DNA of 64,000 bases from Allacma fusca (taxonomy: Eukaryota; Arthropoda; Collembola; Symphypleona; Sminthuridae), in assembly GCA_947179485.1 (NCBI GenBank), contig OX359246.1, forward strand, positions 15,252,001 to 15,316,000, given 5' to 3'. This document shows, one piece after another, positions 8,241 through 48,286 of the stretch (within the stretch, counting starts at the first letter, position 1; every line of letters starts with the position of its first letter). The position numbers and the translations under genes were made by a program. The notes below the pieces were generated by a model, which saw only the letters and a program-made list of their open reading frames with translations, was not told the DNA's origin and made no database searches.

Positions 8241-8984
8241 CTCTTTGGGATTTTAAATTATATATTTTTGGAGCAACCATTTTTCCATTCCGCCCCTTCA
8301 AAAAAGGTCATTTTGGAAAAGTTAGCAGAGATTGTGGAACGAAGTCACCCCTGCTATGTGCTCTGCGGTCAGGGAATATCTTTAACATAAAGATTCGACT
8401 TGGAAAACTTACTACAGTAGAATTTTGAATTATTGACAAACTTTTCAAATAATTGTGACACCCTTAAAAATCACAGGTTCAAAGAATCTACAATTTTTTC
8501 CACCCCTGTAATATTTCATCCTCACAATGAGACCGGGTTACTACGACAATGCGGCAGCACCGGGATACGAGGCATGAAACATTATACGGACCCTGGCACT
8601 TCCCATTTTCGGAGTTACTCCAATCCAGCCAATGACAACACTTTAACTCAAGAAACGTTGAAAGTCAAGTTTAGCGCGTGGATAAAAAAATGTTTTAAGG
8701 AGCGCGGGATCAGACTCCGAGACGTATCGGAACATCAATCATGTATCATTTGCTTTGTTGTTCTTCGTCATTTTTCTTGGAAAAATCGTTGAATAAATAT
8801 TTCGTAACAGCTTCACAGAACCTGCGATTCTAATATTCAGAATTCGGATAATTACTGTTAATTCTGATGGTGAGCCAATACATAAATTCATTTGAAGGAA
8901 CAACGGGAAGCATTACGAACACTCTTATTAATCTGCTCAAGAATAATTAAGGAACAAAACCTTTTTTCCCAGCGCATATATGTA
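7942..8984. other. intergenic region upstream of polymerase alpha copy 1
   Basis: It holds the CT microsatellite and an open frame at 8433-8792 with no recognisable domain. The promoter of the first polymerase alpha copy should lie here, but I cannot point to a core promoter element. Confidence 0.35.
8187..8238 (+). repeat. (CT)26 microsatellite
   Basis: A perfect CT dinucleotide run of 52 bases, about 750 bp upstream of the first coding exon of polymerase alpha copy 1. Confidence 0.95.
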
Positions 8985-11900
8985 ATGGAAGGTAAAGAAC
9001 TAATAATTTTATTTTTTTATTATTTAGCCTGATCTTATCGTAATTTTTTTTATTACAGAATGTATTGTGTTGTGTTTGTGCATTTAATTGTGATTGAATG
9101 CATTTCTCATTAGTTGGGGACATTGTTATACTTTTGTATAAAAAATATGAATATACAAGTTTAAGCCAAAGTATAGGAAATCATTAATTTAATATTTGAG
9201 AAAAGTGATGAGGATGTTTTTAAAAGTTAAGGAAATTCCAGGAAATGATATAATGAGGATTAATTAATTACGAGAACAGATGATCCAAACTCCTCCCGGA
9301 GTCGTCCCTCCAGGGCTGATATTTCTGGACGGAATGCCGCTGTAGAAAGATTAAAGAATTTGCGGGGTCAGAAGAACAAGTATGAGGTCACGGAGATGCA
9401 GAACGTGTATGACATTGTGGATGAGAGGGAGTACTCGAAAAAGATCAATGACCGGCAGAGGGATGATTGGATCATTGATGATAATGGTAAAATTTGATTG
9501 GGGGGTTTCAATTTAATTAGATTATTTTGTATGGGGTGTTTTAATGCGTGTTACGTAAGTATAGGTGAATAAGAAGGTTTTGTGAAACTGTTCATAGTTC
9601 TGTTTGGGGCAGAGATGCGCAGCCTTCGAAGGCTAGCCTTCCAAGAAGGCTTCCTTGAAGGCGGAAAGGTAACTTTCTTAACGTTGCAGAAGGAATGGAA
9701 GGATGGGGATACTTTTTTCTGAAGGCTGAAGGAAGCCTTCACAAAAACTAGCAATGAAGGATTGTGAAGGAAGGCTTCCTAAATATTAGCCCTCTAAGGC
9801 CGTGAAGGCTTCCAGGTACACGACATATCTATAACGTGTAAGCATAGCATATGAAACGACGTTTTGCTGCTCGCGCAACAATGCAGCCAATTCGTGAACT
9901 CACAACTGACAATGTGTGCCCGCTCTCTTCACTGCACTGAATCCTGCTGGTGCAAAAAGTTTTTAAGCGGGTTGTAGTTTAAAATTGAAGGAAGGCTATT
10001 TTTAAAAAGAAGGCTGAAGGCAAAAACGAGTGTAAATATTTCGGAAGGAAGGGTGAAGGAAGGCAGATTTTTTAGAGGGCTTCATTCTAGGATATGTTGA
10101 AGGGGAAATTTTTACTGAATTTTCGCCTTCGAAGGCTTGAAGGAAGGCTATTTGTTTTGCGCATCTCTGGTTTGGGGTATTCCAAGCGAACGGCAAAAGT
10201 AACGCCCATCTGTGGGTGACGGGGTCCCAAAGGTAGAAAGTCTGTTTCGAGAAGTTTAAGCAGTACATCTCCGACATTTATGAGCTGATTTTGATGAATG
10301 AATCATGTCCGTCCGGAACAGATGAAGGGTACTTAGCATAAACTAGACAAGTGGCTGTGAGCCCCCTACCAAGGACTAGGAACAGTTTTACAAATACTTG
10401 TTGTTTGTTTTTTATCTTATTTGTCTGCACTTTACTCGCTCTTTTATTTAGTTTGGGGAAATTTCGACTGTTATATTTTATGTTTGTTTATTTTCAACAG
10501 GATCTGGGTATGTAGAGGATGGTCGGGAAATATTTGACGAGGATATGGAAGACGCGGAAGAAGCTGCCCGACGCAAACGGAAGGTCAGACATTCTAAACG
10601 GGATAAAGACGATGCCCAGATGAGTAAGGAAAGTAATCCGGCTAACTTCCAATCCGTTCGGGATATACTATCGAATATGCCTCAAAAGAGGAAACGAGCG
10701 AAGATGACCTCATCTGCTGGTCCATCCGTTGATCAGGAAACCCTCCTCTCTGATCTGATGCTTGAGCTGAAAAATGATACAAAAACTGGTCCTTCTACTA
10801 GCACTGAAAAACTCATCAAAAAAATTGCGACTCCGCAATTAGAACCTTTGAAGATGGAGCCTAAAAAGGCTCCATCAGTTGTCATCAAGCCGGGGTTGAA
10901 TTTTTTCACGCCACCTGTGAGCTATGCTAACAAAAAAACTGTAAGTAATCGTCGTCGTATTTTTACCAACCATTTCCTTCTATTCGGGGGGAGGGATTTT
11001 AATTCAGCATTTTTTGAGTAATTACATCTAAATGATCGAAGGAAGCGAAGTCTACATTTTATAAACTGGTATTTCAATCTAAAATTAAAGCTAAAGAATT
11101 AAATTTTATTTACCCAATTTCAGGAGTACTCAAGACCCTCTACCTCGACATACCAGTTTTCAAAACAGACAGAAAATTCATCAGCTAATTTATTCGTTAA
11201 CTTGGATGATGATGTAAGTTGGTTGATTTGTATTTGAAATGAGTGTACTGTTTAATTAAATACTTCTAAATCCCGAGGACCAACCTATATGCGGACAATT
11301 AAATTTGGTTATTGTAATAAGTAATTTATTAAACTGATATAATGTATGTAATAGATTGTTCATTTTTTCTTCTTTTCATTGTTTTAGTTCAATGACAGTT
11401 TGGATTTTGAGGAGCCTTTAGAACTACCCAGGGAGCCGCAGTCAGGCAGAAGGACGAACTCAACTTCTAAAGTTATGAGTGACTTTCAGCGGAACGTTTT
11501 ATCTACTCCAGTAACTGATGCTGATGTGGTCATTAAGGTGCATAATTTACACATATATAATATATATATACTGTTTGGATGTGGCCAAACACGTGCACAT
11601 TGTCTGGGCAGGATATTAGTTGTTCTTTTTTGTATTATCTGGAGTTCCTAGTTTTACATATAATTTTCATCACAAAATTGCTGCAGTGCAAAAAAAACAA
11701 TTGACAAAAATTTTACCGTAATTAAATGCAGTTATTTTAAAAATGAGCTTCTGTCCAACGACAACACATTTGAATTATTTTTATAGACTGAACTCGGCGT
11801 TCCAATTAAGGCTGAACATGTGGAGGAAGATATGAGTATGTACATGGATGAATCAGCTTTTGAAGGAGATATGGTATGGTACTTTCGTGTCAACTGTGAT

Positions 11901-14900
11901 AGTGTGATAGTGCGATAGAAATTAGCAACCACCATATAATGAACCCCACACGAATAGTAGTAATTAGGCATGTTCGTAACGATATACCGGTACGATATTA
12001 TCGTACATTTTTTAGAAACGATATAGCACGATATTTATCGGGGTTTCCCGACGATATATCGTCACATGATTATATCGTACATTCGCGAGTAATAACAAGA
12101 ATTGTGCACTTTTTTGACAAAAATGCGAGCAAAACTAGCGGACAAAATCATTTTACGACTTTGGAAAATCATACCACACCAAATTCGGTCTAAAGATATT
12201 CAAGATGTTTTTTTTTATGCCTGATCCATTAAACAGTCAACATTAATGAGCTGGCCGTCATTCTAATACACAGGGTTTAGCATTTTTGCGAATAAAGATG
12301 CGCAACCAGCGCAACTATAATTTTGGTTTTTTGCTATTTTGTTGACTTTAGTTTGAAAACTTTGAAAACGTTAGAAACTTTAATGACTTAAGTTCCCTAA
12401 TAAGGTTATCCGAATTCGGGGGTCAGTTATCAGTGTAATGATGAACAGAAATTCTATGGTGTAATTATTATGTGTAGTTTTAATGTTTTCTTACTGACGC
12501 TGATGTCTTGCATTATTATCTTTGAAATGCTTCAAGTTGTACATATTTTCAACTCAATGCCTTTTAGACTCATGTATTTGGAATAAAATGTAATCTGTGC
12601 TAATTTGGGCTGAAAATTTGGTTCCTAAGGAGCCTTAGTAATAATAATTAGCTTGTACACGAAATTAAAGTTCTGTTAATTTCCGTTAAATAATGCCAGA
12701 AGCCACAACCTGATATATCGTTATATCGTACCTCGATATCGTTATCGGTAATTTTTCACAGAACGATAACGATATGAACGATATTTTAAAATCGAACGAT
12801 ATGAACATGCCTAGTAGTAATAGTGTAGTATTTGCTAAAATTTAATTCATCTTAAGGTCATGCTTTTGAATTCGTGTAGTCAATATTCAATGTACGTTTG
12901 ACCATTGTTTAACAATCTAATCATGCAGTTCGTGTTTCTAATTGATTCCAGTGGTTAAATTTTTACTGGCTGGATATGTATGAAGAGCCGAAAAATCCTG
13001 GTGTTCTGTATTTGTTTGGCAAAGTGAAAGCTACACCACCTGCAACAGGCTACAGCAGTTGCTGCGTCATTGTAAAGAATCTGAATCGTCAAGTTTTTCT
13101 TCTTCCGAAAGACACAGTGAGCTTGTACATTGTTATTTGATAGTTTTTAATCATAGGAATCACAAACAAAAAGTGAAACCCAACTGGTGTTTTTAGTGTA
13201 CAGTATTAGCGTATTTTAAATTACATTAGACGTATCCTCAAATGATACAAAACGTAATCATTAATGTTAAAACCTGGACCTTTAATTATAAGTTCATTTT
13301 GACGTATATAGAAAGGTGACGGAAGTCCGATGGTATACGAGGACGTATATAAGGAATTCAATACTGTCATTGCGCCTAAGTATAAAATTACGGCACACAA
13401 AACCAGAAAAGTAAAGAAGAAGTACTGCTTCGAGATTCAGGATGTTCCACCTGTTGCAGAGTATATGGAAGTTCGTTACTCCGTAAGTTTCTAAAATATT
13501 GTAGTGTACGCATCAGATTTTAATAGATCCGTATAAGAAATTTACATTTTAATTATTTATTGCAAGGCTGTCCTCCCTGTACTCCCGCCAGACCTCACAG
13601 GCGAAACGTTCTCTAAAGTTTTCGGAACAAATACACCTCTAATGGAAACCTTCCTGTTGGAAAAAAAACTGAAAGGCCCAAACTGGCTTCGAATTTCTAA
13701 TTGTGAACAGATCCTAAGTGGGAACCAACAATCTTGGAGTAAATTCGAATTTTCTTGCCATGTCTCGGATGTTTGTATAAACCCTGAGGCATCATCCCTC
13801 CCACCCCCAACTTTAGTCCTGGTCTCGTTAAATCTGCAGTCTGTCACAGACGTTGGGGCTAAAAAGGAGTCTATAATTTTTGCCGGCGTCTCTGTCAACA
13901 AAAACTTTCACCTCCAAGCACCTCTCCCGCCGAACGGACTCTATCATGATTTCTTCTGTTGTGAGTATTTTTTTATTGTATCAAGGTACTAAATTACTGT
14001 CTTACAACTTTTTGAGCTACCTTGTCTTTATGGTCAGTAATTAACAAGCCTCCTGGAGAAGTGTGGCCATTGGATGTGGACCGAATCGTGAATAAACGAA
14101 CACTGAAGATGGACTCGGAAAGAAGCATGTTAGGCTGTCTTCTAGCCAAACTCCACCAGATTGACCCAGACGTATACCTAGGTCATGACCTAAACTTTGA
14201 GCTACTTTTGCTCCAGCTCTTGCACTTAAAAGTGCCACACTGGTCGAGAATTGGAAGACTCAAAAGATCTAATCCGGTCACAAAGGTAGATGTCAGCCCT
14301 ATCATCAATGACTTCTAATTTTTGTATTATATCTTTGAATTTTAAGAAATCATAATGCTACAATTTGTAAAATTATCTTTTTCTTCAGCAAAATAAAATG
14401 CTTGATATCCGGGCAGCTTTAGCAGGACGACTGCTTTGTGATGTAAAAATTTCTGCAATGGAACTCATCCGGGCCAGGTCCTATGACCTTCCCAGTTTAG
14501 GATCTCAAATTTTGGGCATGAAGGAGGATCAGATTGCCACTCTGACCGGACCAGAGATGAAGCAGTTGTTTGCCAGTTCCGAAGGCTTGCGAAATTTTGT
14601 TAATTGGGGAATGCAGCATTGCGTCCTTAACACAAGACTCATAATCCAGCTGCAAGTAATGCCTCTGGCCGTCCAGATCACTGCTATTGTAGGTAAATGA
14701 AAAGTATCATAATTATTACAAAGAACGTATATGCAATATGCATATTAAGTCATTTCATGACCATGTAGTCCAGGTATTTATTTTAAATACTAATCCATTT
14801 TAAAAAATTTAAATTAAATAATTAAATTTAGAATTTTGTAAATTCAGGAAACACTCTAGCTCGGACACTCCTTGGTGGGCGTTCGGAACGTAACGAATAC

Positions 14901-17900
14901 TTGCTTCTTCATGCCTTCACTTCGCAGGACTACATTGTTCCAGATAAGTTCAAGCCATTTACAAATAAATCTATAAAAAAGGAACCAGTTGAAGGTGAAG
15001 AAGAAGAAAAGAAGGGAAACAAGAGCGGTCCCAGTTACAGTGGTGGACTGGTCTTAGCCCCAAAGAAAGGATTCTATGACGATTATATTGTACTGATGGA
15101 CTTTAACTCCTTGTATCCGTCAATTATCCAAGAATACAATGTTTGCTTCACTACCCACGTCACCGATGGAGAAAGCTCCAAAAATATTCTGGTTAAGGAT
15201 GATCGCCGTGGGATCTTGCCAGAAGAAATACGAAAGTTAGTGGAAATGCGTAAACAAGTCAAGGGTATCATGAAGGGCTCAAATGTATCACCAGACCAGA
15301 TGCGTCAATATGACATTCGGCAGAAGGCTCTCCAACTCACTGCTAACTCTATGTACGGTTGCTTGGGTTTCCGACTGTCTCGATTCTATGCCAAAAATCT
15401 TGCTGCATACATTACAGGTATGGTTCTCATTTTTGCAGTTGTTTACCTGGAAATACTAAGTTTGTAACATTCATTAATTTTTTCGATTTAATATTACTAC
15501 TTTAAATGTTGTAAGAAATGAAGAAATGCATGTCAAGTTTTCTGCATCTTATTTTAATATGATCAGAAGAGTGAAATTGCTTGTATGGTTGCCAATTCGA
15601 GCTTTAGCATGGGAGTCTTGTAATTTCGAAAAAATATTCAGGTCAGGTCAATGACCACGGGTAAAATGATTTGTCTGCGTAAGTAGCACACTACCTACAC
15701 TGCTACAGTATAGAAGTGTGGAGGAGATATTTGGATCTGTTTGAAATTGAATTTTTTCGTTATAAATTTTCAAAGAGATTTGAAAATATTTTTATCAGAT
15801 CCCTCGTTAAATTCTGAGGTAGGAGTCAGACAAAAGACTGACACATTAAAAATATTGTCAAAGTAATGATCGACAAAATGAAACATTTTAATGGAAGTTT
15901 TCCAAACTCGCTCCAAAACAGCGCAAACAAACATGCACGTTGCTACCAATAATTAACTAAAACTCTAAAGAAGGATCACTATTTCCTAATATCATTATCT
16001 ATATCCTGTATGAAGGAATGTATTTGTATGTTGTTGTGTGAACAGGGTCGTATGCTCACTTCAAAATAATACCAAATACTTAGATTTTTCGCTACCATTG
16101 TCTGCCACCAATTGCGAACAAATGAGAGCTGAAACCTTCAATAGCCCGGGTATTGGGGTTATTGGGAAACTTCGAAGCAAATATTCTATACCAGAGTCAT
16201 GAAGAGAACTCGAGTAAGAAATATGGTGAATACACGGGTTATACCTTGATCTTTTAGGTCATCAAAATGAATGAAAATTTGCACATTGCTGCAAAGGTCA
16301 CCACAGGTCGTTTATTTATAATGAAGTATGATATATGTTTCCGGTGCCCTAGCTTGCGAGAGGTTGGTCCCAAAATCTTGCCCTGCCCTGTAGCATATGG
16401 GCTATCTGGCTTAATGGAGATCTAGTTATGTGTTATTTTTAAGATGAAGAAAGCATTTTCATTAAAACCCCGTAATTCCTAAATCTGTAACGTTTCTTTT
16501 ATATCATTATCTCCACGGCTACCAAATTGGCTGTTGTACAAATCAAGTTTGTGTTGGGTGCCTACACAATAAGCTTATCTTCGATGAAGAGGCAAAATGG
16601 TCTAGATGCCTCTCGATTAAAAACAAATTAGTCTACATGCGTTTCACTAAATGAAGAGTGGACTATTTACTAAAAAAAATAAAAGCAAAATGGTCTACAG
16701 TTTGTACGTGTCGTTTTCACAAAAATCTAAACAAAATCGAAATCGGGACCATTTTGACTCTTCACTGACTTTATATTTAAGTACGATACAATTTGGAAGT
16801 GTCCTTTGACCTGTCCTGTCTTCCAGACTAAATATTTCCAGTGTAAGATTCTTCTTGATTTCAAGTCTGTACACTTACAACCATGTCACAAAATTTCATC
16901 AAAACCAAAAAAAGCAACCTTGACTTGTTCCTATATTTGTTCATTTTTGAATTTATTCAAGCTATGACATAAATATTGTAGGAAAAGGTCGGGATATCTT
17001 GCACAAGACCAAAGACCAAGTAGAGAAAATGGGCTTCGAAGTTATTAATGGAGATACTGACTCTTTGATGATCAATTCTCGTACACAAGACATCCAACAA
17101 GTATTCCAAATAGGAAATAAAATTAAGAGTGAAATCAACCGGACGTATAGATTGCTGGAACTGGAGATTGATGGAGTGTTCCGGAATGGAGATACTGTTT
17201 CGTATCTCCGTACAGACGGAAAAGCCCATCACTTAACTGAACTGGGGAAACCTGTAAAAATAAAGAAAAATCAGGATGACGGGACAGACGAGGAGGAAGT
17301 GAAACAGCTAACACCTGATCCAATATATTACCTTGCAAATCAAGTGGACCCCGTGGTTTCTCGTATATGTGATCCTATTCCTGGACTCAATCCTGCAAGG
17401 ATTGCAGATTCCTTAGGATTGGACTCAAGCTCATATATTAGGAGGATAGTTGTGGAGGAGAATGAGGGCAAATTCTTAGGCCATCAGTCTGAAGCAGAAA
17501 AATATATAGATTGTGAGAAGTTAACTTTCCGTTGTTCCAAGTGCAACGCATATGTTTCGTTGACCTCGCCTTTGTTTCGAAAGGTATTATTTAAACGGCA
17601 ATTATTAAATATATTTTAGCACAATTTCTATAAGGTTATTGTATATCGTGTGTCTTCAATTGGTAGAAATATTTGGATTATATTTGAAAATGTTTTGTAT
17701 CCTTAAAAATTAGTAATTGCGTGTCATCAATTTGTAGAACGGGAATTTGGAATTTTCCCTTGAGACTTGCCCCAGTAAGGACTGCTATGAGAACCCTTGG
17801 GGAAGCACTATCAAGTTCAAGAATAAGCTCACTATTTTTATCCGGAAATTTATCACCAGTTATTACAAGGTTCAGAAATTTAGCTTATTACCGAGTTTTG

Positions 17901-18460
17901 CCAGGATTCGCAGTATTTAAATTTGTAAAATTTGAGGAATTTTCTGAATTGTGGGAAAAAAGTTCTAAACCAATGGGTTTTACGTTTACAGAACACATTC
18001 ATTTGCGAGGATCCCAGTTGCTCCGGTGTGACCAGCACAATGCCTTTGTATTTGGAACGTGGGTATCCCGTCTGTGCCTGTAAGCAAGCTTTGATGTACA
18101 AGGAATTTTCGGATGCGCAACTCTACCGTCAGCTCAACTACTTACGTTTTGTCTTTGATCTGCCCAAGAGCTTCGAGGAACTTACCAAGGTTGAAAAAGG
18201 TGAAAAGTTTTCACTTACAATTTTGGCTCTAGTTTCAGTAAAGATTTTAAGTAACTACAATGACAACTTTTCTTTCTAATGAAACAGCGGAGTTGAAATG
18301 GCGACTGCGCAATAAGCATCATCCCGGGAAAAAACTTGGAGTGGAGTTGATTTATGAGGACCTTCAGTCGTTCGTTAAGAATACCTTGGACCACTCCGCT
18401 TACTCTCATATTGACCTGAAAAACATTTTTAGTCTTATATCCTTACGGATGGCTGATTGA
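8985..18460 (+). CDS. POLA1-like: DNA polymerase alpha catalytic subunit-like, copy 1, catalytically altered
   Basis: Sixteen exons join in phase to 1315 codons plus stop: 8985-8991, 9280-9486, 10501-10940, 11124-11213, 11388-11537, 11787-11873, 12952-13116, 13312-13482, 13567-13960, 14038-14285, 14389-14692, 14848-15417, 16982-17583, 17738-17869, 17992-18199, 18288-18460. The N-terminus ([35 protein letters not shown]) and the whole order of blocks are those of the family-B replicative primase-polymerase subunit. Motif A ([10 protein letters not shown], about residues 839-848) is intact. Motif B reads QLTANSMYG, with Gln917 in place of the dNTP-binding Lys. Motif C reads NGDTDS, with Asn967 replacing Tyr. 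After GVFR the sequence jumps to NGDTVSYL, so region VII (KKKKY) and the start of the thumb are missing. Both C-terminal cysteine modules remain. There is no stop or frameshift. It is either a preserved pseudo-enzyme or a young pseudogene. Confidence 0.85.
9610..10169. mobile_element. hAT-like MITE in intron 2 of polymerase alpha copy 1, GAAGGC motif family
   Basis: The element is 560 bp and is flanked by an exact 8-bp duplication (GTTTGGGG at 9602-9609 and 10170-10177). Its ends are a 12-bp inverted repeat (CAGAGATGCGCA). The interior is dominated by GAAGGC/GCCTTC and GGAAGG repeats in both orientations. It is absent from the same intron of copy 2, so it arrived after the duplication. Confidence 0.85.
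11965..12813. mobile_element. hAT-like MITE in intron 6 of polymerase alpha copy 1, TATCGT motif family
   Basis: The element is 849 bp with an exact 8-bp duplication (GTAGTAAT at 11957-11964 and 12814-12821). The inverted ends start TAGGCATGTTC. Both ends are saturated with ACGATAT/ATATCGT, and the middle is plain AT-rich DNA without a coding frame. It is absent from copy 2. A related ATATCG-rich stretch lies at about 18715-19050. Confidence 0.85.
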
Positions 18461-20120: not shown

Positions 20121-23051
20121 TTATTCTTTATTACAATGAACAATCAGACATAGGAATAAAGGCGTGGCCCGCGGGTAAAAATTCGGGTCGGGCCTCGGCC
20201 CGACCCGCCTGTGCGGGTTATGGGCGGGTTCGGGTTGAATGCCTTGTCGTGTTGCAAGTTGCGGATCGGGTTGGGTTTTTATTGTATTTCAACGGGGCAG
20301 GTCGGGTTGAAATTTATGCACATAGTGCGGGCTGCGGGCGGGTTCGGGCAGAATTTAAATATATGTTGGGCCCGCAAGCAGCCCGCAAAACGTTTAAATT
20401 TCAATCACCGGCGCTTAGGATTTTTCCAGGAGAATTATATGGCTTGCGACTATTTGTGATTGATCATGTTTGTGCCTTTAGTGTTGGTAGTTACTATTCC
20501 TGTTTGATCGTGTTTCTCGCTTATCGTGTGACTGTGACTTGTAACGTTTTGAAGTTGCTGCTCTGAAATCAAAAGCATGTAAAATTTGTTAGAGCAGTAT
20601 TCTTACCATTAGTTAACGTTTCCTGCGAAGGGATTTTCAAACACAAATTAAAAATCGAACCAGCTACAGATATTTAAAAACAATTTAAACTTAAATAATA
20701 TTTATTCTTCGGTTTCTACGGTTTATACTTTTGTTGTAGACATTGTGATGGGAAGCGAATCTGACAGCGTTTTACTAAGTTCTTAAACAATTGCGGGCCC
20801 CGCGGGGGCCCGCAAGCTGGGTCGGGCTGTGTCACCTGAAACCCAGCGGGCTGCGGTCTGGCGCGGGCCTTAAAAAATACTGTCGGGTCGGGGCGGGTCG
20901 ACGTTTCAGAGGTTGACTTTCGGGTCGGGCGGGTTCGGGTTACGTATTTGTGGGTAAGACTTGTCGGGTTGGGTTGGGAAATCTCCTGCGGGCCACGCCT
21001 TTACATAGGAAATATAACGAAGTTTTCTTGAAGGTGATTATAAGGTAGAAGAATTTTTTACTTAACATTCGAACAGGTATTTCATCCATAATAAAATGTA
21101 AAGGATTAACATTTCCAATGCCTAATTTTAAACTGTCAAATGGATAATTGCTTAACTTAGTCACTTCATTAAATATTTTAACATTCAATTTTAAATTGGC
21201 TAAACTAGTAGAATCACGTGTAAAAGAATTAGTAGAGTCTATACCGACAATTTTGACAACTTTGTTGTCTTTAGTCAGGAAACAGTTATTACCCGTCAAA
21301 GTAGAAACATGTATACCCTTAATTGTAAGTATTTTTACTGTTTTCCATGTGTGTAACTTATCTTGAACTGTATAATAACTTAATGACAAATCTTCCGCTC
21401 TCTCTGCTAGTCTACTTGCTATCTGCTGCATATCATGCTTTTTACCTCGGAGCAGCCTTTTTAAATGTTGCATATAATTTTCAAAAGGCCAGGCTGAAAA
21501 ATTATCTAGAGTGCCAAAATTCGAGGAGTCTGTTGCTAAGTGGCACAAGTTATGAACATTGTACACAGAATTCTCTACCATAAATACTAATCCCTTCCTG
21601 GACAAATTTGATTAAAAGTTGATGTGCTAAATTAATGAATTCAACATTGTTTTGGGTGTTGTGTGTTAAAATAAAAATCGCACTGTGTAACAACAAAACT
21701 GCAAATAATGACTGGGGTTTAGTACAGGTTTTAAAACAACAACTCCAGCATAAAGCAAAAACGTTCTGTACTCAGTCGCTTTAAATTGTTCCAATTCTCT
21801 GGTAGATCTTATTTTGCGACTAAATTCTCTAGGAAAATGGGTGGCTTTAGCTGAAATGATTTCATTCATTTTTGAAACCAAATTTGAAGGTAATTTGTTT
21901 GGCTCTTTGCCTCTAGTCCATATAAATAAAAGTTTACGACATACCCCTAAATACACTAAATGCATGGGGTCAAGCACTGTTTGAAGTACCACATAAAATT
22001 CTAGTTCAATTAAGGGAGATACACCAGCATGGTGATCAGCATCTAATTGTGATGAAAAACTATCGAATGTTCTGAGTTTACTGGTTGTTGACAAATAAAT
22101 AACTCTTCCTAACCATTCACCCTCTTGCTCACACCGTTCACATCCATTGTAGGCGTTGTGGTTTTTTATACATTTGATGAAGCTTCTAGCAGGAGCATCG
22201 GCAATTACACAATTAATATATACATAATACAATTTACCGTCTATACATAATCCTTCATTCTGTCAAATCTTTAGCTCCGCGATAAAATCACATAGGAAGT
22301 CATGGACATTTCTCGGTTTCGAAATACCACAAAAAATGGAAATTACAAATGGAGACTTATCTGTAGCCTGTACTAATGTTCCAAGAATAGGCCAGATGTT
22401 TTTATTGGAGGATTTGCTAATCGGTAAACCATCTATATTTATATTTAGTAATAGCCTATTAGGTTTTTCACGATGATGTGAGTAGATTGAACTTTTCGTA
22501 TTCGCATATAAATCGAATCCTAGCTGAAGTTTTTTGAAGATATTCTCTTTAAGACCTACATAGCAATACTCGTTACCATCTATATTTACTATTACTATTT
22601 TGTAGTATTTCGATGTTTTTAACAATGTTGTAGCATTAATAGGGATGTTGACACCAGGTATGTCATTTTTTAATAATTTCAGCAAATCTGTAATTGCTGC
22701 GTGTGTTACATTGTGAGTCAAACTCCATTGCCTTAGATTTTCTTGAAAAGACACTTTTACCTTCAACTCATTGTTATCTAAATCACTATCAGAACACTCA
22801 TCTGCAATTTCTGCAGAATTATCTTGTAAATTGCTTAACACACTTTCACTGTCAGCACACAAAAAATTTGTGTACAATGTAGCTATAGTAGGACGGATGA
22901 TTTCTCCATCTTTGGAGTTTGTTCTTTCTGTTTCAAATTTCTGGTTCACTTGAACCTGAATTGCAGCTTGAAATATCTTCTTGTCTTGTGCAATTCTTCG
23001 CCTTTTTGCTCTGCTCACTGATGCCAGTTTGAGGGCGCTTTCGTCCTTCAT
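20121..23051 (-). pseudogene. Tnp2-like transposase, broken
   Basis: Read on the minus strand from the ATG at 23051, the product has the blocks typical of a large transposase family in insect genomes, which I associate with Tnp2. These include LNINIDGLPISKSSNKNIWP, VISIFCGISKPRNVHDFL, ADAPARSFIKCIKNHNAYNG..CERC, LDPMHLVYLGVCRKLLFIW, EFSRKIRSTRELEQFKATEY and NVHNLCHLATDSSNFGTLDN. It has an in-frame TGA at 22262-22260, a frameshift near 21690 and another near 21590. It is then split by the MITE at 20157-21003; removing the MITE restores a reading to a TAA at 20123-20121. The start codon lies 8 bases after the stop of the upstream DUF4806-like gene. The superfamily name rests on memory of family blocks, not on a search. 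Confidence 0.7.
20157..21003 (+). mobile_element. hAT-like MITE, GGGTCGGG family, first copy
   Basis: The element is 847 bp with an exact 8-bp duplication (CATAGGAA at 20149-20156 and 21004-21011). The inverted ends are TAAAGGCGTGGCCCGC. Both ends are GC-rich and packed with GGGTCGGG, GCGGGTT and CGGGTCG, in sharp contrast to the AT-rich surroundings. The central part is AT-rich and non-coding. It interrupts the Tnp2-like transposase relic. An apparently identical copy lies in inverted orientation at 27664-28510. Confidence 0.92.
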
Positions 23052-23059
23052 GCCTGTCC

Positions 23060-24617
23060 TTAGATCCGCGAAACCAATTTGATTTCCGTGTTGATTAATT
23101 TGTCAGTAACAATTTCAGACTGGGTAAAATTGCGTCGAACGGTTTCTACATATAATATGTTTAGATAAAATGGAAACCGGTTGTTTCAAAGTTTATCGTA
23201 AGTAAGTTATCATTATGTTATGTTTAATAATTAATAGTTATTATGCTTACCAATAACAATATTGTGAAGGGGACAATATTTGAACTGATTTTTTTTATGC
23301 GCCCCTCCTCCTTTGTAGCCCACCCGGATAGCAAAGTTTCGTGTAAAGAGCTTCTCCAAAATTGATCGGGTTACTTTACCGACATTGGTATCCCCAATTT
23401 TGTGGAAGTAACGCCTCTATATTAACAATCAGTAAACAACACTTATAATTGATAAACATTTTATACAGTTATTTCAGTTCAAACAAGTTAAAAACAAAAC
23501 CATTTACCAGTAGACTAGCATTTGCTGAGGCTTTTAACCACTCAAACGCACTTTCCAAAGATTCCTCAGATGATATTGGAATTATGTTCATCAGTGGTTC
23601 AAAATCAAATCTGGAAACGCTTCTACTACCACTTGGGAAATTTTGCGCTTGAGAAAATTCTCGCATTCCATCTTTTAGACTAGCTAGCTGCTCAGCAACA
23701 AACGCTCGCAAACCTGATATTAAAATCACGATAACTATGTAATGCTTGCATAGTTATAATTAAATCACAAACACATTTACACTTACAACAATCATAATGT
23801 TAGGAATCAAGGATTGAAAAATGTAACATTTACCATTTACTTCAGCCTTGAGGGTCTCTATTTCGGAGTTAGATGTGATGGAACTACTTACTGCAGTATT
23901 TGTAGGAAACAGAACCTCCGTGATATAATTTTCACTTTCATCAGTAGCCACTGATTGATCTGCAGTTAAATTGATGGGATCTTCCAGATGTGAATGTTGT
24001 ATTGCGTCTAAATGTTCTGCTCCCACAATGAAGCATTAATTAGACCGTGCGTATGCATTGACTATAAATGATACTTACGCAAAAAGAGGTTACTCTGTGG
24101 TTCAATGATTTGATCCACACTGTTGGACTGCGGCTGACTGCTCACACTTGCACAGGAATTTTCCGCACCCTCCGGAATCACTTCGGAATAAACGAAATCA
24201 TTGTTTCGTGTAGTCTTGACTTACCTCATCCTAAATTCCCTGTCCGCAAACTCTGAACACAAGTCGGACGTGTCGTCTGCCTTTTTAGCCAATATGAGCC
24301 CGTAATCGTAATCATCTAATAAATAATTCTGTAGTTAATTATTACTCTTCAATGTACCTTCTATTTTGAATTCGATATAGTGTAAACATTTAATACTAAT
24401 GAGATAAAATCTAATTACCTAATGATCGATAAATCTTTACTTCATATTCTTTCCAAAGGGTTTTGTCCGGCTGTCTTCTTCTTAATGGCTGTTTGCAATT
24501 TTTTCCCTTAAAGTTCACAGGCCAAAAGCAAGTCTGTTTATTTTTGAGCCAGCATGTTGGAATTAAAGCCACAGATTTATAAAGTAGGAATTCTACAACA
24601 CAGAATTCTCGTTCCAT
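23060..24617 (-). CDS. DUF4806-type protein gene carried by the Tnp2-like element
   Basis: Seven exons join in phase to 324 residues: 24617-24419, 24315-24225, 24119-24079, 24019-23834, 23713-23508, 23416-23251, 23145-23060. The N-terminus (FCVVEFLLYKSVALIPTCWL, then CFWP, then a KTLWKEYEVKIYRSLG turn) matches the start of arthropod proteins of this kind. The C-terminal half has the DUF4806 pattern: FEPL..PISSEESLESAFEWL, YFHKIGDTNVGKVTRSILEK, then FAIRVGYKGGG and a VRRNFTQSEI ending. The middle is Ser/Asn-rich and probably disordered. No catalytic motif is visible. The stop codon at 23062-23060 lies 8 bases before the transposase ATG on the same strand, so both may come from one transcription unit. 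Every splice phase fits, so this gene looks intact while its neighbour is broken. The function is unknown; a DNA-binding accessory role is only a guess. Confidence 0.65.
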
Positions 24618-27663: not shown

Positions 27664-28510
27664 TAAAGGCGTGGCCCGCAGGAGATTTCCCAACCCAACC
27701 CGACAAGTCTTACCCACAAATACGTAACCCGAACCCGCCCGACCCGAAAGTCAACCTCTGAAACGTCGACCCGCCCCGACCCGACAGTATTTTTTAAGGC
27801 CCGCGCCAGACCGCAGCCCGCTGGGTTTCAGGTGACACAGCCCGACCCAGCTTGCGGGCCCCCGCGGGGCCCGCAATTGTTTAAGAACTTAGTAAAACGC
27901 TGTCAGATTCGCTTCCCATCACAATGTCTACAACAAAAGTATAAACCGTAGAAACCGAAGAATAAATATTATTTAAGTTTAAATTGTTTTTAAATATCTG
28001 TAGCTGGTTCGATTTTTAATTTGTGTTTGAAAATCCCTTCGCAGGAAACGTTAACTAATGGTAAGAATACTGCTCTAACAAATTTTACATGCTTTTGATT
28101 TCAGAGCAGCAACTTCAAAACGTTACAAGTCACAGTCACACGATAAGCGAGAAACACGATCAAACAGGAATAGTAACTACCAACACTAAAGGCACAAACA
28201 TGATCAATCACAAATAGTCGCAAGCCATATAATTCTCCTGGAAAAATCCTAAGCGCCGGTGATTGAAATTTAAACGTTTTGCGGGCTGCTTGCGGGCCCA
28301 ACATATATTTAAATTCTGCCCGAACCCGCCCGCAGCCCGCACTATGTGCATAAATTTCAACCCGACCTGCCCCGTTGAAATACAATAAAAACCCAACCCG
28401 ATCCGCAACTTGCAACACGACAAGGCATTCAACCCGAACCCGCCCATAACCCGCACAGGCGGGTCGGGCCGAGGCCCGACCCGAATTTTTACCCGCGGGC
28501 CACGCCTTTA
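27664..28510 (-). mobile_element. hAT-like MITE, GGGTCGGG family, second copy, inverted
   Basis: The element is 847 bp with an exact 8-bp duplication (ATTGGAAC at 27656-27663 and 28511-28518). It has the same ends as the 20157-21003 element and the same length. By eye it is the same sequence in the opposite orientation; the incidental reading frame inside is identical over about 147 codons. The different target duplications prove two independent insertions. Confidence 0.92.
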
Positions 28511-39499: not shown

Positions 39500-41446
39500 A
39501 TGGGAGGTAAGGACGTTAATATGTATAACTATTTATTTTATTAATATGTATATATTGTGTATTTTTAATTCAATTTTTATTTTGTATCGTAAATTGATTT
39601 CTGGAATTTTGTGTATAGTTTGTGGATTTTTAGTTTGTAGTCACAAAATGCAGAGATGATTGTACAGTAGTAGCAAGGAATTTAAAAGAGAATTTGGTGT
39701 TCGTTTAAAATTGTTATTTAATTTGAGATTTTTTTTGAGACCAGGGATTTGAATGTAACGACATTTTGGAGATGAAATAATCGGGGGATCTTTATTGACA
39801 ATTACAGATGATCAAAATTCCTCCCCGGCTCCGGAGACACTGGCCACGACAAGGAGTCGTCGATCAAAGGCAGATACTTCTGGACGGAATGCGGCTTTAG
39901 AAAGATTAAAGAATTTGCGGGGTCAGAAGAACAAGTATGAGGTCGCGGAGATGCAGAACGTGTATGACATTGTGGATGAGAGGGAGTACTCGAAAAGGGT
40001 CAATGACCGGCAGAGAGATGATTGGATCATTGATGATGGTAAAAATTAATTGGGGTGAATTAGATTATTTTGTATGGGGTTTTTCTACCTTTCTCTTCTA
40101 GTTCCATCTAGGGCCTATTTCAGGATTTTACAAAATTCTAAAGTTTTCGACGAAAGTGTATTTTTGATTTTTGTACTATTAATAACCTGAGGCCAAGTAT
40201 TGTGCACTTTAAAATTTAACCAAGCAAGAGCCAAATGCAGCATATGATACTCTATTTGGACTCTATTATGCATTCAGCATAAAGTTGCTCAGTTTAAAGT
40301 CCTCTACCAGAAAACTATGACCAGTTCATAAATTCTTGTTGTTTGCTGTTTTAGTTTGGTGGTTATTGTAAATTTATTTTATATTTTGCCTATTTATTTC
40401 CCCCAGGATCTGGCTATGTAGAGGATGGTCGAGAAATATTTGACGAGGATATGGAAGACGCGGAAGAAGCTGCCCGACGCAAACGGAAGGCCAGACTTTC
40501 TAAACGGGATAAAGACGATGCCCGGATGAGTAAGGAAAGTAATCATGCTAATTTTCAATCCGTTCGGGATATGCTTTCGAATATGCCTCAAAAGAGGAAA
40601 CGAACGGCGATGACCTCATCTGCTGGTCCATCTGTTGATCAGGAAACCCTCCTCTCTGATCTGATGCTTGAGCTGAAAAATGAGAAGAAAACTGGTCCTT
40701 CTACTACTACTGAAAAACTCATCAAGAAAATTGCGACTCCGCAATTAGAACCTATGAAGATTCCTAAAATTGCTCCATCATTTGTCATCAAACCGGAATT
40801 GAAAAAGTTCAAGCCAACTGTGAGCTATGTTAATAACAAAACCGTAAGTAATCCTCGTGTTTTTACCAAACATTTCCTTCCATTCGGGGGGAGGGATTTT
40901 AATTCAGAACTTTTTGAGTAATTACATCTAAATCATCGAAGGGCGCGAAGTCCACCTTTTATTAACTAGTATTTCAGTCTTAAATTAAAGCATTAAATTT
41001 TATTTACCCAATTTCAGGAGTACTCCAGCCCTTCTACCTCGACATACCAGTCTTCAAAACAGACAGATAATTCGTCAGCGGATATATTCGATAACTTGGA
41101 TGATGATGTAAGTTGGTTGATTTACATTGGAAATGAGTGTACTGTTTAATTAAATACTTCTGAATTCCGAGGACCAACCAATATGCGGACAATTTAATTT
41201 GGTTATTGCAATAAATAATTATGTAATATGATATGATGTATTTAATAAATTGTTCACTTTTTCTTCTTTTCATTGTTTTAGTTCATTGACAGTTTGGATT
41301 TTGACGAGCCTTTAGAATTACCCATGGAGCCGCAGTCAAGCAGAACGACGAACTCAACTTCAAAAGTTATGAGTGACCCTGAGCCAAAAGTTTTATCTGC
41401 TCCAGCAACTGCTGCTGATGTGGTCATTAAGGTGCAAAATTTACAC

Positions 41447-41490
<44 letters not shown>

Positions 41491-44400
41491 TTGCTGTTTG
41501 GATGTGGCCAAACATGTGGACATTGTCTGGGCAGTATATTATTTGTTCTTGTGTGTATTATCGGGAGTTCATAATTTTACACGCAATTTTAAATCACAAT
41601 ATTGCTGCAAAGTTCAAAAATAACATTTAACAAAAACTGTTAACTATATTTGAATGTAATTAATTTTAATATAAGCTTCAGTCAGACGTTATCACGTTTC
41701 GAATTATTTTTTACAGACTGAACTCGACGTTCCAATTAAGACTGAACTTGTGGAGGAAGACATGAGTATGTACATGGATGAATCAGCTTTTGAAGGAGAG
41801 ATGGTATGGTATTTTCGTGCCTTGTTACTATATAATAAATCTTAGGAATGGTAGTTACAGTGTAGTATATGCTAAGTTTTAATTAATCTTTAGGTCGTGA
41901 TTTTGCATTCATGTGCCAATATTCAATTCCGTACAATGAAAATTTCGTTTATGGGTACATTAGTATACGTATACCTAGTTACAAATTTGGATCCCGCATG
42001 TATATTTGATTTTTGTTTCCTTAATGAATTATACCATGTCAGAACTTTGAAACGACTTCTACCTGTGCCCCTACAATGGTCAACGAGGAACCAAGTGGTA
42101 GCAGGGTAATTGCATATTTATTTATTTTTGTATATCTCAGCGACGACTTGAAAGTTTTTACTCATCCATAGAAATGCGATTTGTGCAATAATTTTTCAAG
42201 GTTTGACACTTTAATCATGCAGTTCTTGTTTCTGATTGGTTCCAGTGGTTAAATTTTTACTGGCTGGATATGCATGAAGAGCCGAAAAATCCTGGTGTTC
42301 TCTATTTATTTGGCAAAGTGAAAGCTACACCACCTGCAACAGGCTACAGCAGTTGCTGCGTCATTGTAAAGAATCTGAATCGTAAAGTTTTTCTTCTCCC
42401 GAAAGACAAAGTGAGCTTGCACATTTTTATTTGATAATTTTTATTCATAGGAATCACAAACAAAAAGTGAGACCCAACTGGTGTATTTACGTTAGTGTAT
42501 TAGCGTATTGTAAATTACAATATGCAGAGTCTTACAGAATACAAAACGTAATCATTAATGTTAAAACCTGGACCTTTAATTATGTTCATTTTGACGTATA
42601 TAGAAAGGTGACGGAAGTCCGATGGTATACGAGGACGTATATAAGGAATTCAATACTGTCATTGCGCCTAAGTATAAAATTACGGCACACAAAACCAGAA
42701 AAGTAAAGAAGAAGTACTGCTTCGAGATTCAGGATGTTCCACCTGTTGCAGAGTATATGGAAGTTCGTTACTCCGTAAGTTTCTAAAATATTGTAGTGTA
42801 CGCATCGGGTTTTAATAGATCCGAATAAGAAATTTACATTTTAATTATTTATTGCAAGGCTGTCCTCCCTGTACTCCCGCCAGACCTCACAGGCGAAACG
42901 TTCTCTAAAGTTTTCGGAACAAATACACCTCTAATGGAAACCTTCCTGTTGGAAAAAAAACTGAAAGGCCCAAACTGGCTTCGAATTTCTAATTGTGAAC
43001 AGATCCTAAGTGGGAACCAACAATCTTGGAGTAAATTCGAATTTTCTTGCCATGTCTCGGATGTTTGTATAAACCCTGAGGCATCATCCCTCCCACCCCC
43101 AACTTTAGTCCTGGTCTCGTTAAATCTGCAGTCTGTCACAGACGTTGGGGCTAAAAAGGAGTCTATAATTTTTGCCGGCGTCTCTGTCAACAAAAACTTT
43201 CACCTCCAAGCACCTCTCCCGCCGAACGGACTCTATCATGATTTCTTCTGTTGTGAGTATTTTTTTATTGTATCAAGGTACTAAATTACTGTCTTACAAC
43301 TTTTTGAGCTACCTTGTCTTTATGGTCAGTAATTAACAAGCCTCCTGGAGAAGTGTGGCCATTGGATGTGGACCGAATCGTGAATAAACGAACACTGAAG
43401 ATGGACTCGGAAAGAAGCATGTTAGGCTGTCTTCTAGCCAAACTCCATCAGATTGACCCAGACGTATACCTAGGTCACGACCTAAACTTTGAGCTACTTT
43501 TGCTCCAGCTCTTGCATTTAAAAGTGCCACATTGGTCGAGAATTGGAAGACTCAAAAGATCTAATCCGGTTACAAAGGTAGATGCAGTTCATCAATGGCA
43601 TACTTCTAATTTTTTGTTTTATTTCTTTGAATTTTAAGAAATCATAATCCTACAATTTATAAAATTACCTTTATCTTCAGCAAAATAAAATGCTTGATGT
43701 CCGGGCAGCTTTAGCAGGACGGTTGCTTTGTGATGTAAAAATTTCTGCAATGGAACTCATCCGGGCCAGGTCCTATGACCTTCCCAGTTTAGGCTCTCAA
43801 GTTTTGGGCATGAAGGAAGATCAGATTGCCACTCTGACCGGACCAGAGATGAAGCAGTTGTTTGACAGTTCCGAAGGCTTGCGAAATTTTGTTAATTGGG
43901 GAATGCAGCATTGCGTCCTTAATATAAGACTCATAAACGAGCTGCAAGTAATGCCTCTGGCCGTCCAGATCACCGCTATTGCAGGTAAATGATAAGCACT
44001 ATAATTATTGCAAAGAATCACAGCAAATATATGTAATTAATTATATAAAATAATGCAGTCCAGCTTTATATTGTTTTTCAAAATACTAATCCATTGGAAA
44101 TTAAATAATTAATTTTTTTTTGTTGTAATTTTGTATATTAAGGAAATACTCTAGCTCGGACGCTTCTTGGTGGTCGTTCGGAACGTAACGAATACTTACT
44201 TCTTCATGCCTTCACTTCGCAGGACTACATTGTTCCAGATAAGTTCAAGCCATTTACAAATAAATCTATAAAGAAGGAACCAGTTGAAGGTGAAGAAGAA
44301 GAAAAGAAGGGAAACAAGAGCGGTCCCAGTTACAGTGGTGGACTGGTCTTAGCCCCAAAGAAAGGATTCTATGACGAGTATATTGTACTGATGGACTTTA

Positions 44401-47400
44401 ACTCCTTGTATCCGTCAATTATCCAAGAATACAATGTTTGTTTCACTACCCACGTCGCCGATGGAGAAGGCTCCGAAGATAAACCGGTTGAGGCTGGGCG
44501 CAAGGGGATCTTGCCAGAAGAAATCCGAAAATTAGTGGAAACGCGTAAACAAGTCAAGGGTCTCATGAAGGGCTCAAATGTATCACCAGACCAGATGCGT
44601 CAATATGACATTCGCCAGAAGGCTCTCAAACTTACTGCTAACTCCATGTACGGTTGCTTGGGTTTTCGACTCTCTCGATTCTATGCTCAAAATCTTGCGG
44701 CATACATTACAGGTATAGTTCTCTGTTTTGCGGTTATTTACCCTGAAATACTACGTTTGTAACTCATTAGTTTTTTCGATACTATTTGGTTTTAGTGTTA
44801 CTACTTTAACTACTGTATTCTTGGAAATGAAGAATGGGATAAGTCAAGTTTTCTAGCTGTTGTTTTAATTTGATGATAATCGATGTGAAGGGTGAATTTG
44901 CTGGTATGATTACCAATTTGAATTTTAGTATGGAATGATCACGGGTGAAATGAATTTTATTGTACGAAAACGTAGGCATTCGATGTGTATCTACAAATGT
45001 AGCACACTAACTTACTACCTAGACTACTACAATATAGAAGGATATGGGAGATTTTTGGATCTAATTAGAGTCAAGTTTTTTTGTTTTAAATTTTTAAAGG
45101 GTTTCGAATATTTTTACCGGAATCTTAGCTAAATTCTGAAGTAGGAGTTAGACGAAAGACAGTGACATATTAGAAATATCGTCAAAATAAAGAACGACAA
45201 AATAAAAGATTTGGATTGAAGTTTTCCTAACTCACTTAAAATTTACTACCCAATTCGAAAATTCGATTGCTGAAAAGTTACGGGCAGGAAAATGCTAGCT
45301 AAACTCATATATATTTACGAACTTCCAATATTATGACCAACAACTACCATCTGTCCGAACTTACCCTCGTACTCCCACCAAATACCCAGGTTTCCTACTG
45401 AGAATATTAAAATCAATTTTGTCGTACCTCTCCAACTTGGGGCTACCCTTTGCGGTGTGAGTGGGTGACATAATTGTAACTTGTTAGAACAGCGTTGTAT
45501 GTTTGCTCTCTTCAACATACCATCCTTAGAATTTTCCTCTACAATTGTCTACAACCAATAGCTAACAAAAGAAACCTTCAATAACCTCTGTAGTGGGTTT
45601 ATTGGGAAACTTTGAAGCAAATATTCCATGCACAGTCATAAAGAGAACTCGAGCAAATATTATGGTGAATACAGGTTATAGGTCGACCTTTTAGGTCATA
45701 AGTGAACTTCTGATTCTGATGGATCTTTGCACGCTCCTGAGTAATCTGCACGAATAATTGTAATGATACGCTTGCCAGGAAGTGCTATTATAGTGACCAG
45801 AATTCATAGTGTGGAATCTCCAGAGGACGCACAAAGTTTGGAAACATTATTTTTCGCTCCTCTGAATTCGGAATAGCACAGAGGGTTCAAATATTCATCA
45901 AAATAAATGAAAATTTGCACACTGCTGCAAAGGTCACCACAGGTTATTTGCTTATAATGTTAAGTATAATATATGTTTACGGTGCCCTAGTTTGGGAGAG
46001 TTTAATTCAAAAATATCGCCGCACCCTGTAACATGAGCTGTCTGGTTTAAAGGTGATCAGGTTGTTATTTTTAAGCTGAAGAAGGCGTTTTCATTAAAGC
46101 CTCGTAATTCTTAAATCTGAAACGTTTCTTTCATATTATTACATCCACGACTACCAAATTGCTCTTGTACAACTCAAGTTGGTTTTGATTAAATGTACAA
46201 TTAGCTAAATTTTATCTTTGAAACTAAATGTTTCCAGGATAAAATTCTTCCGAATTGCTATTCTACACACTTACAACCATGTCATTAAATTTCACCGAAA
46301 CCAAAAAAAAGCAACCTTGACTTGTTCCTATATTTCTTAGTTTTGTAATTTCTTCATGTTTTGGCATAAAATCATGTTTTATATTGTAGGGAAAGGTCGG
46401 GATATCTTGCTTAAGACCAAAGATCAAGTAGAGAAAATGGGCTTCGAAGTTATTTATGGAGATACTGACTCTTTGATGATCAATTCTCATACACAAGACA
46501 TCCAACAAGTATTCCAAATAGGAAATAAAATTAAGAGTGAAATCAACCGGACGTACAGACTGCTGGAACTGGAGATTGATGGAGTGTTCCGATTTTTACT
46601 TCTTTTAAAGAAAAAGAAATACGCAGCTATGCTTTGCAATTTAAAACCCGGTGGAGGTGAGTTACTGATCTAATATCAGATAATGATTATTGTTATGAAT
46701 ACTGGAAGCGCACTCAATTTAAGCAATTACCGATTAAATTCAATGTATAATAAATTTTCAGAAAAAGAATATGTACTGGAGCTGAAAGGACTGGACATGG
46801 TTCGTCGAGACTGGGCCCCGATTGCATCCAGTACTGCTCGAGCTTGTTTAGATGAGATTATGAGTGAACAGCCTCTAGACGACAAGATCTTTAAAGTATG
46901 TAAGGTTCTCAACGACGTTGGTGACCAGCTTCGAGAAGGAAAAATTCCTCTGAAAGAATTATTAATTACAAAGCAACTTGCTAAACACCCTGAAGAGTAC
47001 AAAAATTCCGCGGGACTCTATCACGTTAAAGTTGCTTTAAGAATGAACGAAAGTGGGAAGATGCCGAAAAAATTCCGGAATGGAGATACTGTTTCGTATC
47101 TCTTTTGTACAGACGGAGAAGCCCATCACTTAACTGAACTGGGGAAACCTATAGAAATAAAGAAAGATCAGGATGACGGGACAGACGAGAAGGAAGTGAA
47201 ACAGCTAACACCTGATCCAATATATTACCTTGCAAATCAAGTGCACCCCGTGGTTTCTCGTATATGTGATCCTATTCCTGGACTGGATCCGGCAAGGATT
47301 GCAGATTCCTTAGGATTGGACTCAAGCTCATATAAAAGGAGGAGAGTTGTGGAGGAGAATGAGGACAAATTCTTAGGCCATCAGTCTGAAGCAGAAAAAT

Positions 47401-48286
47401 ATACAGATTGTGAGAAGTTAACTTTCCAGTGTGCCAAGTGCAGCACACTTATTACATTGACCTCGCCCTTGTTTCGAAAGGTACTATTCAAAGGCGATTA
47501 TTAAATATATTTTAACACAATTTCTATAAGGTTATTGTATATCGCGTATCTTCAATTTGTAGAAAGGGAAATTGGAATTTTGCCTTGCGACTTGTCCCAA
47601 TGAGAACTGCGTTGAGAACCCTTGGGGAAGCACTATCAATTTCAAGAATAAGCTCACTATTTTTATCAGGAAATTCATCACCAGATATTACAAGGTTCAG
47701 AAACGTTGCTTATTACCTAGTTTTGCCATGTTTCGCAGTATTTAAATTTTAAAAATTTGAGAAATTCTTGGAATTGTGAGAAAAAAGTTCTATACCAATA
47801 TGGTTTTACGTTTACAGAACACATTCATTTGCGAGGATCCCAGTTGCTCCGGTGTGACCAGCACAATGCCTTTGTATTTGGAACGTGGGTATCCCGTCTG
47901 TGCCTGTAAGCAAGCTTTGATGTACAAGGAATTTTCGGATGCGCAACTCTACCGTCAGCTCAACTACTTGCATTTTGTGTTTGACCTGTACAAGAGCTTC
48001 GAGGAGCTTACCAAGGATGAAAAAGGTTAGAAGTTTTCACTTGCAATTTTGGCTGTAGTTTCATTAGAGATTTTAAGTAACTGCAATGACAACTTTTCTT
48101 TCTAATGAAACAGATGAGTTGAAAAGGAAACTGCACAATAAGCATCATCCCGGTAAAAAAGATGGAGTGGAGTTGATTTATGAGGACCTTCAGTCGTTCG
48201 TTAAGAATACCTTGGACCACTCCGCTTACTCGCATATTGACCTGAAAAATATTTTTAGTCTTATATCCACACGGAAGGCTGGTTGA
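39500..48286 (+). CDS. POLA1: DNA polymerase alpha catalytic subunit, copy 2, full length
   Basis: Seventeen exons join in phase to 1450 codons: 39500-39506, 39808-40038, 40407-40843, 41018-41107, 41282-41431, 41717-41803, 42246-42410, 42604-42774, 42859-43252, 43330-43577, 43681-43984, 44143-44712, 46390-46656, 46762-47480, 47563-47694, 47818-48025, 48114-48286. The length is close to the animal enzyme (about 1460). It extends the RNA-DNA primer made by primase at replication start. The N-terminal [20 protein letters not shown] block is followed by a basic linker, the inactive exonuclease-like region, then motif [11 protein letters not shown] (846-855), motif [10 protein letters not shown] (Lys924), motif C YGDTDS (974-979), region VII KKKKY (1025-1029), the thumb ([11 protein letters not shown]) and two C-terminal cysteine modules (CAKC...[10 protein letters not shown] and CEDPSC...CAC) that contact the B subunit and primase. 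All catalytic residues are present, so this is the functional copy. Confidence 0.93.
41451..41488. repeat. (AT)19 microsatellite in intron 5 of polymerase alpha copy 2
   Basis: A perfect AT run of 38 bases just after exon 5. Copy 1 has only a short 'atatataatatatatata' at the matching place, so the run expanded in copy 2 or shrank in copy 1. Confidence 0.95.

Follow-up and report, generated by a model that had tools for sequence, protein, structure and literature searches.

Why would a genome hold, beside an intact gene for the catalytic subunit (p180) of DNA polymerase alpha, a second such gene that is damaged in its polymerase core and still open from start to stop? The 64,000-nucleotide stretch of DNA analyzed here (the window), from the springtail Allacma fusca, raises this question with two genes in the same orientation, ~21 kb apart:

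8985..18460, + strand: copy 1, a POLA1-like gene with a damaged polymerase core (16 exons, 1315 codons)
39500..48286, + strand: copy 2, an intact POLA1 gene (17 exons, 1450 codons; motifs A, B and C and KKKKY present)

To our knowledge, genes for the core enzymes of replication are rarely found in tandem pairs that have lasted long. Among the titles listed by searches of open-access literature, none concerned a dead POLA1 duplicate, and a Drosophila gene table has one PolA1 (PMC7714529). The Allacma pair catches a catalytic subunit after its duplication and before it is either lost or turned to a non-enzymatic role, and it allows one to ask whether a primosome lacking polymerase activity can be tolerated or put to use.

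The rebuilt model of copy 1 joins its exons into 3948 nt, i.e., 1315 codons and a stop codon, with no internal stops. All 15 introns are GT-AG, and exon 14 ends at position 17869 (AAG/GTTCAG, with the slash marking the splice site). The initial annotation had described 16 exons joined in phase without a stop and the survival of every splice site, and the model agrees on each point. The first exon is very short:

8985..8991, + strand: proposed exon 1 of copy 1 (7 nt, ATGGAAG/GTAAAG)

The region around it (8500-9279) has weak but significant similarity to its copy-2 counterpart, with a score of 425 against 306 for the maximum of 60 shuffles. Copies 1 and 2 share with POLA1/p180 the same four Pfam domains in the same order. 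In copy 1, PF12254, PF03104, PF00136 and PF08996 all pass their cut-offs, and the p180 N-terminal, exonuclease-like, family B polymerase and alpha-type zinc domains follow one another as they should in a POLA1 gene. Where copy 1 departs from POLA1/p180 is in its PF00136 match, which stops at profile position 274 of 453, and in the loss of the motif B Lys, the motif C Tyr and KKKKY. Copy 1 has neither the look of a processed pseudogene nor that of a neutral one: it has introns, no internal stops, no frameshifts and 15/15 GT-AG splice sites. Because the introns are present, we reject an origin by retrocopying.

Copy 2 aligns with a full-length p180 chain (8d96_C, which we take to be human) over query residues 12-1442, and there are 120 differences between the two Allacma proteins over 1313 aligned residues. 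A six-frame search of the genome (392,743,791 bases) with the copy-2 protein gave at least 34 matches, 32 of them inside the window; the remaining two (35% and 29% identity) fall on other family B polymerase loci. As a separate observation, copy 2, the presumed working copy, has an altered conserved Lys at residue 944 (44688-44690), where it reads FYAQN; copy 1 reads FYAKN and both vertebrate chains used for comparison (human and Xenopus) read FYAKP.

The damage to the polymerase core of copy 1 consists of two replaced residues and a deletion:

15333..15335, + strand: Gln917 in place of the motif B Lys (CAA; AAA in copy 2, Lys in both vertebrate chains)
17047..17049, + strand: Asn967 in place of the motif C Tyr (AAT; TAT in copy 2, Tyr in both vertebrate chains)
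17179..17183, + strand: deletion junction TTCCG (486 bp lost relative to copy 2 46587-47072, a position uncertain by the 5-bp repeat)

Both replacements, as well as the absence of KKKKY, had been noted in the initial annotation; the loss around KKKKY proves larger than was then described. The deletion costs copy 1 127 codons (381 coding bases, including KKKKY, which stands at residue 1025 in copy 2) and one intron, and the frame is kept. The sequence TTCCG stands at both ends of the deleted segment in copy 2, suggesting that the deletion was mediated by this repeat. Counted on the alignment of copy 2 with p180, the deleted part corresponds to about residues 1044-1168 of the human protein, presumably the last part of the palm plus a portion of the thumb. 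In yeast pol alpha, the primer-template is held by palm lysines K1046, K1048 and K1069 and by thumb residues including 1074-1077 and 1130-1150 (PMC10284912); these positions are in yeast numbering and map to copy 1 by region rather than residue by residue. With this region deleted, extension by copy 1 should fail. An active family B polymerase has complete motifs A, B and C, KKKKY and a full palm and thumb; in copy 1, motif A (DFNSLYPS) is intact, as is the DTD of motif C, which reads NGDTDS. Judged from these features, the loss of polymerase function, which had been proposed earlier, is well supported.

A gene that had decayed freely since its duplication should have accumulated disabling changes. 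We assigned half of the 78 synonymous differences between the copies to the copy-1 branch and asked how many such changes a neutral sequence would carry. With the mutation spectrum of the introns, 9.4 nonsense and 21.5 frameshift changes are expected; uniform or transition-weighted models give 6.4-8.9 nonsense changes, and other intron alignments give ~10 frameshifts, the two alignment methods differing in the intron differences they find and both entering the frameshift range. In sum, about 16-31 nonsense and frameshift changes are expected and none is seen, on the assumption of equal branches and independent changes, both of which gene conversion can disturb. Nor has any splice dinucleotide been lost, with ~3.3 hits expected, and each of the five indels that separate the two coding sequences has a length divisible by three (27, 3, 3, 381 and 3). 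Since none of the expected nonsense or frameshift changes is present, copy 1 remained coding along most of its branch, and neutral decay since duplication is rejected. The earlier remark that such a frame is unusual for a neutral pseudogene is borne out. From nonsense and frameshift changes together, the 95% upper bound on the unconstrained part of the branch is 0.10-0.15, or 0.18 with the lowest expectations; from nonsense changes alone, the upper bound is 0.32-0.47. The catalytic loss would thereby be confined to at most about the last 10-18% of the exon divergence of copy 1 (the last third to half on nonsense alone).

The protein sequences tell how strongly each part has been constrained. 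Pairwise dN/dS between the copies is 0.48 overall (CI 0.37-0.65) and 0.47 outside 12900-14145. By region, it is 0.54 in exons 1-6 (0.34-0.86), 0.23 in the exonuclease, palm and fingers part (0.14-0.40), 1.36 in the rest of exon 13 (CI 0.67-4.9) and 0.85 after the deletion (CI 0.49-1.49); exons 8-9 do not differ at all. A dN/dS near 1 across all exons, which the initial annotation had listed as part of what would speak against a retained gene, is not what these values describe, above all in exo/palm/fingers and outside the gene-conversion tract described below. Polarized against two vertebrate chains, human and Xenopus, 24 differences fall on copy 1 and 8 on copy 2 (binomial P 0.007), with 88 of the 120 differences left unpolarized (42 matching neither chain and 46 without data). 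The copy 1 protein changes faster than that of copy 2. Among 283 conserved codons outside the tract, 10 have changed in copy 1 and 3 in copy 2, with 32.6 expected under neutrality, implying dN/dS values of 0.31 and 0.09, respectively; a wider set of conserved sites gives 10 and 4 changes, a difference that by itself does not reach significance (P 0.18). The ratio of change at variable and conserved sites (380 and 298 sites) is 2.6, a value compatible with a free copy 1 (P 0.23). The relaxed part of the copy-1 branch estimated from conserved-site changes is ~0.24, above the frame-based 0.10-0.18. The slight disagreement may mean that residues are changing within a frame that is itself preserved, the pattern to be expected were a non-catalytic protein still required.

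The introns bear on the age of the pair. Against dinucleotide shuffles, introns 1, 2 and 6 of the two copies are weakly alike (scores of 278, 215 and 324, with shuffle maxima of 275, 186 and 282, respectively), and the similarity of intron 12 is clear, yet it too has diverged. In gap-rich alignments, JC distances for these four introns range from 0.22 to 0.36; the exons and several other introns are much closer. Beyond the gene, no similarity between the copies was found upstream of exon 1 (score 309, shuffle maximum 336) or beyond 18700 (253, shuffle maximum 351). One stretch lies at the opposite extreme:

13245..14155, + strand: putative gene-conversion tract (3 differences to copy 2 over ~0.9 kb)

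Within the tract, the copies are identical over 623 consecutive bp, in a run that spans an intron; the permutation maximum is 199. With so few differences over 0.9 kb, it is best read as gene conversion between the copies, in either direction. The strong divergence of introns 1, 2, 6 and 12 suggests that the tandem duplication is old, and the mosaic of close and diverged stretches points to an old duplication with later gene conversion. The earlier idea that copy 1 may be young is thus divided: the duplication itself looks old, and it is the loss of the catalytic part that is probably recent. In addition, intron 13 of copy 1 (17584-17737) is 72 bp longer than its counterpart, and its 3' end appears to occur in it twice.

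Taken together, the observations suggest that copy 1 either encoded a working protein until recently or still gives rise to a non-enzymatic one. The reading that we favor, at slightly better than an even chance, is that of an old tandem p180 duplicate that stayed coding for long, lost its polymerase late and is now a redundant, dead gene in early decay. Copy 1 would go back to an old tandem duplication of the gene that encodes the pol alpha catalytic subunit; for most of its history its product would have been under selection, and gene conversion would have passed sequence between it and copy 2. Its polymerase function would have been lost late, through the replacements in motifs B and C and the repeat-mediated in-frame deletion, by which the palm lost its end and the thumb a part. 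Replication would be carried by copy 2, with copy 1 most likely redundant, catalytically dead and at an early stage of decay. If the copy 1 protein is made, it would neither hold nor extend a primer-template; binding of POLA2 and primase through its C-terminal domain might persist. Copy 1 is most simply explained as a redundant gene whose loss came late.

The alternative that survives best, possible although distinctly less probable, is that copy 1 encodes a selected, non-catalytic p180, whose N-terminal part is maintained and whose C-terminal domain would still dock on POLA2 and primase, giving a primosome that primes without extending or a decoy in competition with copy 2. Apart from the intact frame and splice sites, and the direction in which the two relaxation estimates differ, its case lies in the two ends of the protein, above all in this part:

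17181..18460, + strand: post-deletion part with the alpha-type zinc domain (Cys columns and SHIDLKNIF kept)

The C-terminal domain of copy 1 keeps 9/9 Cys columns common to both vertebrate chains, and its zinc domain scores 121.9 bits against 123.8 bits for copy 2; the p180 N-terminal domain scores 61.0 and 57.1 bits, respectively. In human p180, peptide 1447-1455 binds primase, and Zn2 and the helical region bind POLA2 (PMC5333051). By residue count, this peptide corresponds to SHIDLKNIF, which is identical in copies 1 and 2. A retained non-catalytic protein is possible because the C-terminal scaffold part keeps its key residues. To the earlier suggestion of a regulatory or dominant-negative subunit, the preserved zinc domain and primase-binding peptide are permissive evidence. 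The genome search showed one locus each for the small and large primase subunits and one read as POLA2 from its translation, with no sign of co-duplication. We therefore reject a duplication of the whole primosome, POLA2 being identified by that translation alone. What weighs against a selected non-catalytic protein is that dN/dS is 0.85 in the very part that holds the required domain, and that its conserved-site changes extend beyond the polymerase part (5 in palm/fingers, 4 post-deletion and 1 in the N-terminal/exo part). A fuller version, in which a polymerase-dead p180 is kept by selection as a POLA2/primase scaffold that could prime or block without extension and is partly homogenized with copy 2 by gene conversion, seems to us slightly less probable again.

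Dead paralogues with a role are not without parallel. The trypanosome prozyme is reportedly a catalytically dead regulatory paralogue that forms a functional complex with its active partner. Copy 1 is likewise a dead duplicate beside an active enzyme, although prozyme is placed in a complex and copy 1 is known here from sequence alone. The C-terminal half of Pol epsilon is an inactivated polymerase-exonuclease module for which a role in the assembly of the replication complex has been proposed (PMC2669801). It shares with copy 1 a family B polymerase module in which catalytic motifs are disrupted. It differs in being joined to an active module and conserved across eukaryotes, whereas copy 1 is a separate gene known here from one genome.

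It is very improbable that copy 1 has been a neutral pseudogene ever since the duplication. The overall dN/dS of 0.47-0.48 is near the value for one constrained and one free copy, and the variable/conserved ratio would also allow it, but the missing disabling changes, the five in-frame indels and the shortfall of changes at conserved codons (10 rather than 32.6) all contradict it. That copy 1 is still a polymerase, perhaps a specialized one, can hardly be credited despite the intact motif A and DTD, with 127 codons missing after motif C and two key residues replaced. An assembly artefact or unpurged haplotype, whether of copy 1 or of its deletion, is just as implausible: curation did remove 23 haplotypic duplications from this assembly, but it is a HiFi assembly with a QV of 58.7 (PMC10427803), and alleles would not differ in their insertions or have introns diverged to such unequal and, in part, strong degrees. 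We reject the haplotype reading because the divergence between the copies is unequal.

The two intron insertions mentioned in the initial annotation are present as elements with terminal inverted repeats:

9610..10169, + strand: 560-bp element in intron 2 of copy 1 (12-bp inverted ends CAGAGATGCGCA, 8-bp target duplication GTTTGGGG)
11966..12812, + strand: 847-bp element in intron 6 of copy 1 (inverted ends AGGCATGTTC, target duplication about GTAGTAAT)

From their inverted repeats and ~8-bp target duplications, we take both to be hAT-like. Among the matches listed, other near-complete copies of the 560-bp element are 98-99% identical to it, and the nearest other full-length copy of the 847-bp element is 96% identical. 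Relatives of both occur genome-wide (40 of 673 and 40 of 1067 candidates scored, respectively). Between the gene copies lies an inverted pair of 847 bp (20157-21003 and 27664-28510), 100% identical, that resembles a recent mobile-element insertion. Three adjoining open stretches at 20943-23102 (minus strand), without a Pfam match, resemble a decayed mobile element. Elsewhere in the window, 745-1386 is an open frame with a C2H2 zinc finger, and the open frame at 54254-55159 weakly resembles a ligand-gated ion channel, at 28.7 bits against a cut-off of 30.8, and is perhaps ionotropic-receptor-like. Outside the window, two loci on contig C12 (L014 at 6.08 Mb and L016 at 34.44 Mb) both look from their translations like POLD2, the small subunit of pol delta; one of them is strongly diverged, and POLD2 may be duplicated too.
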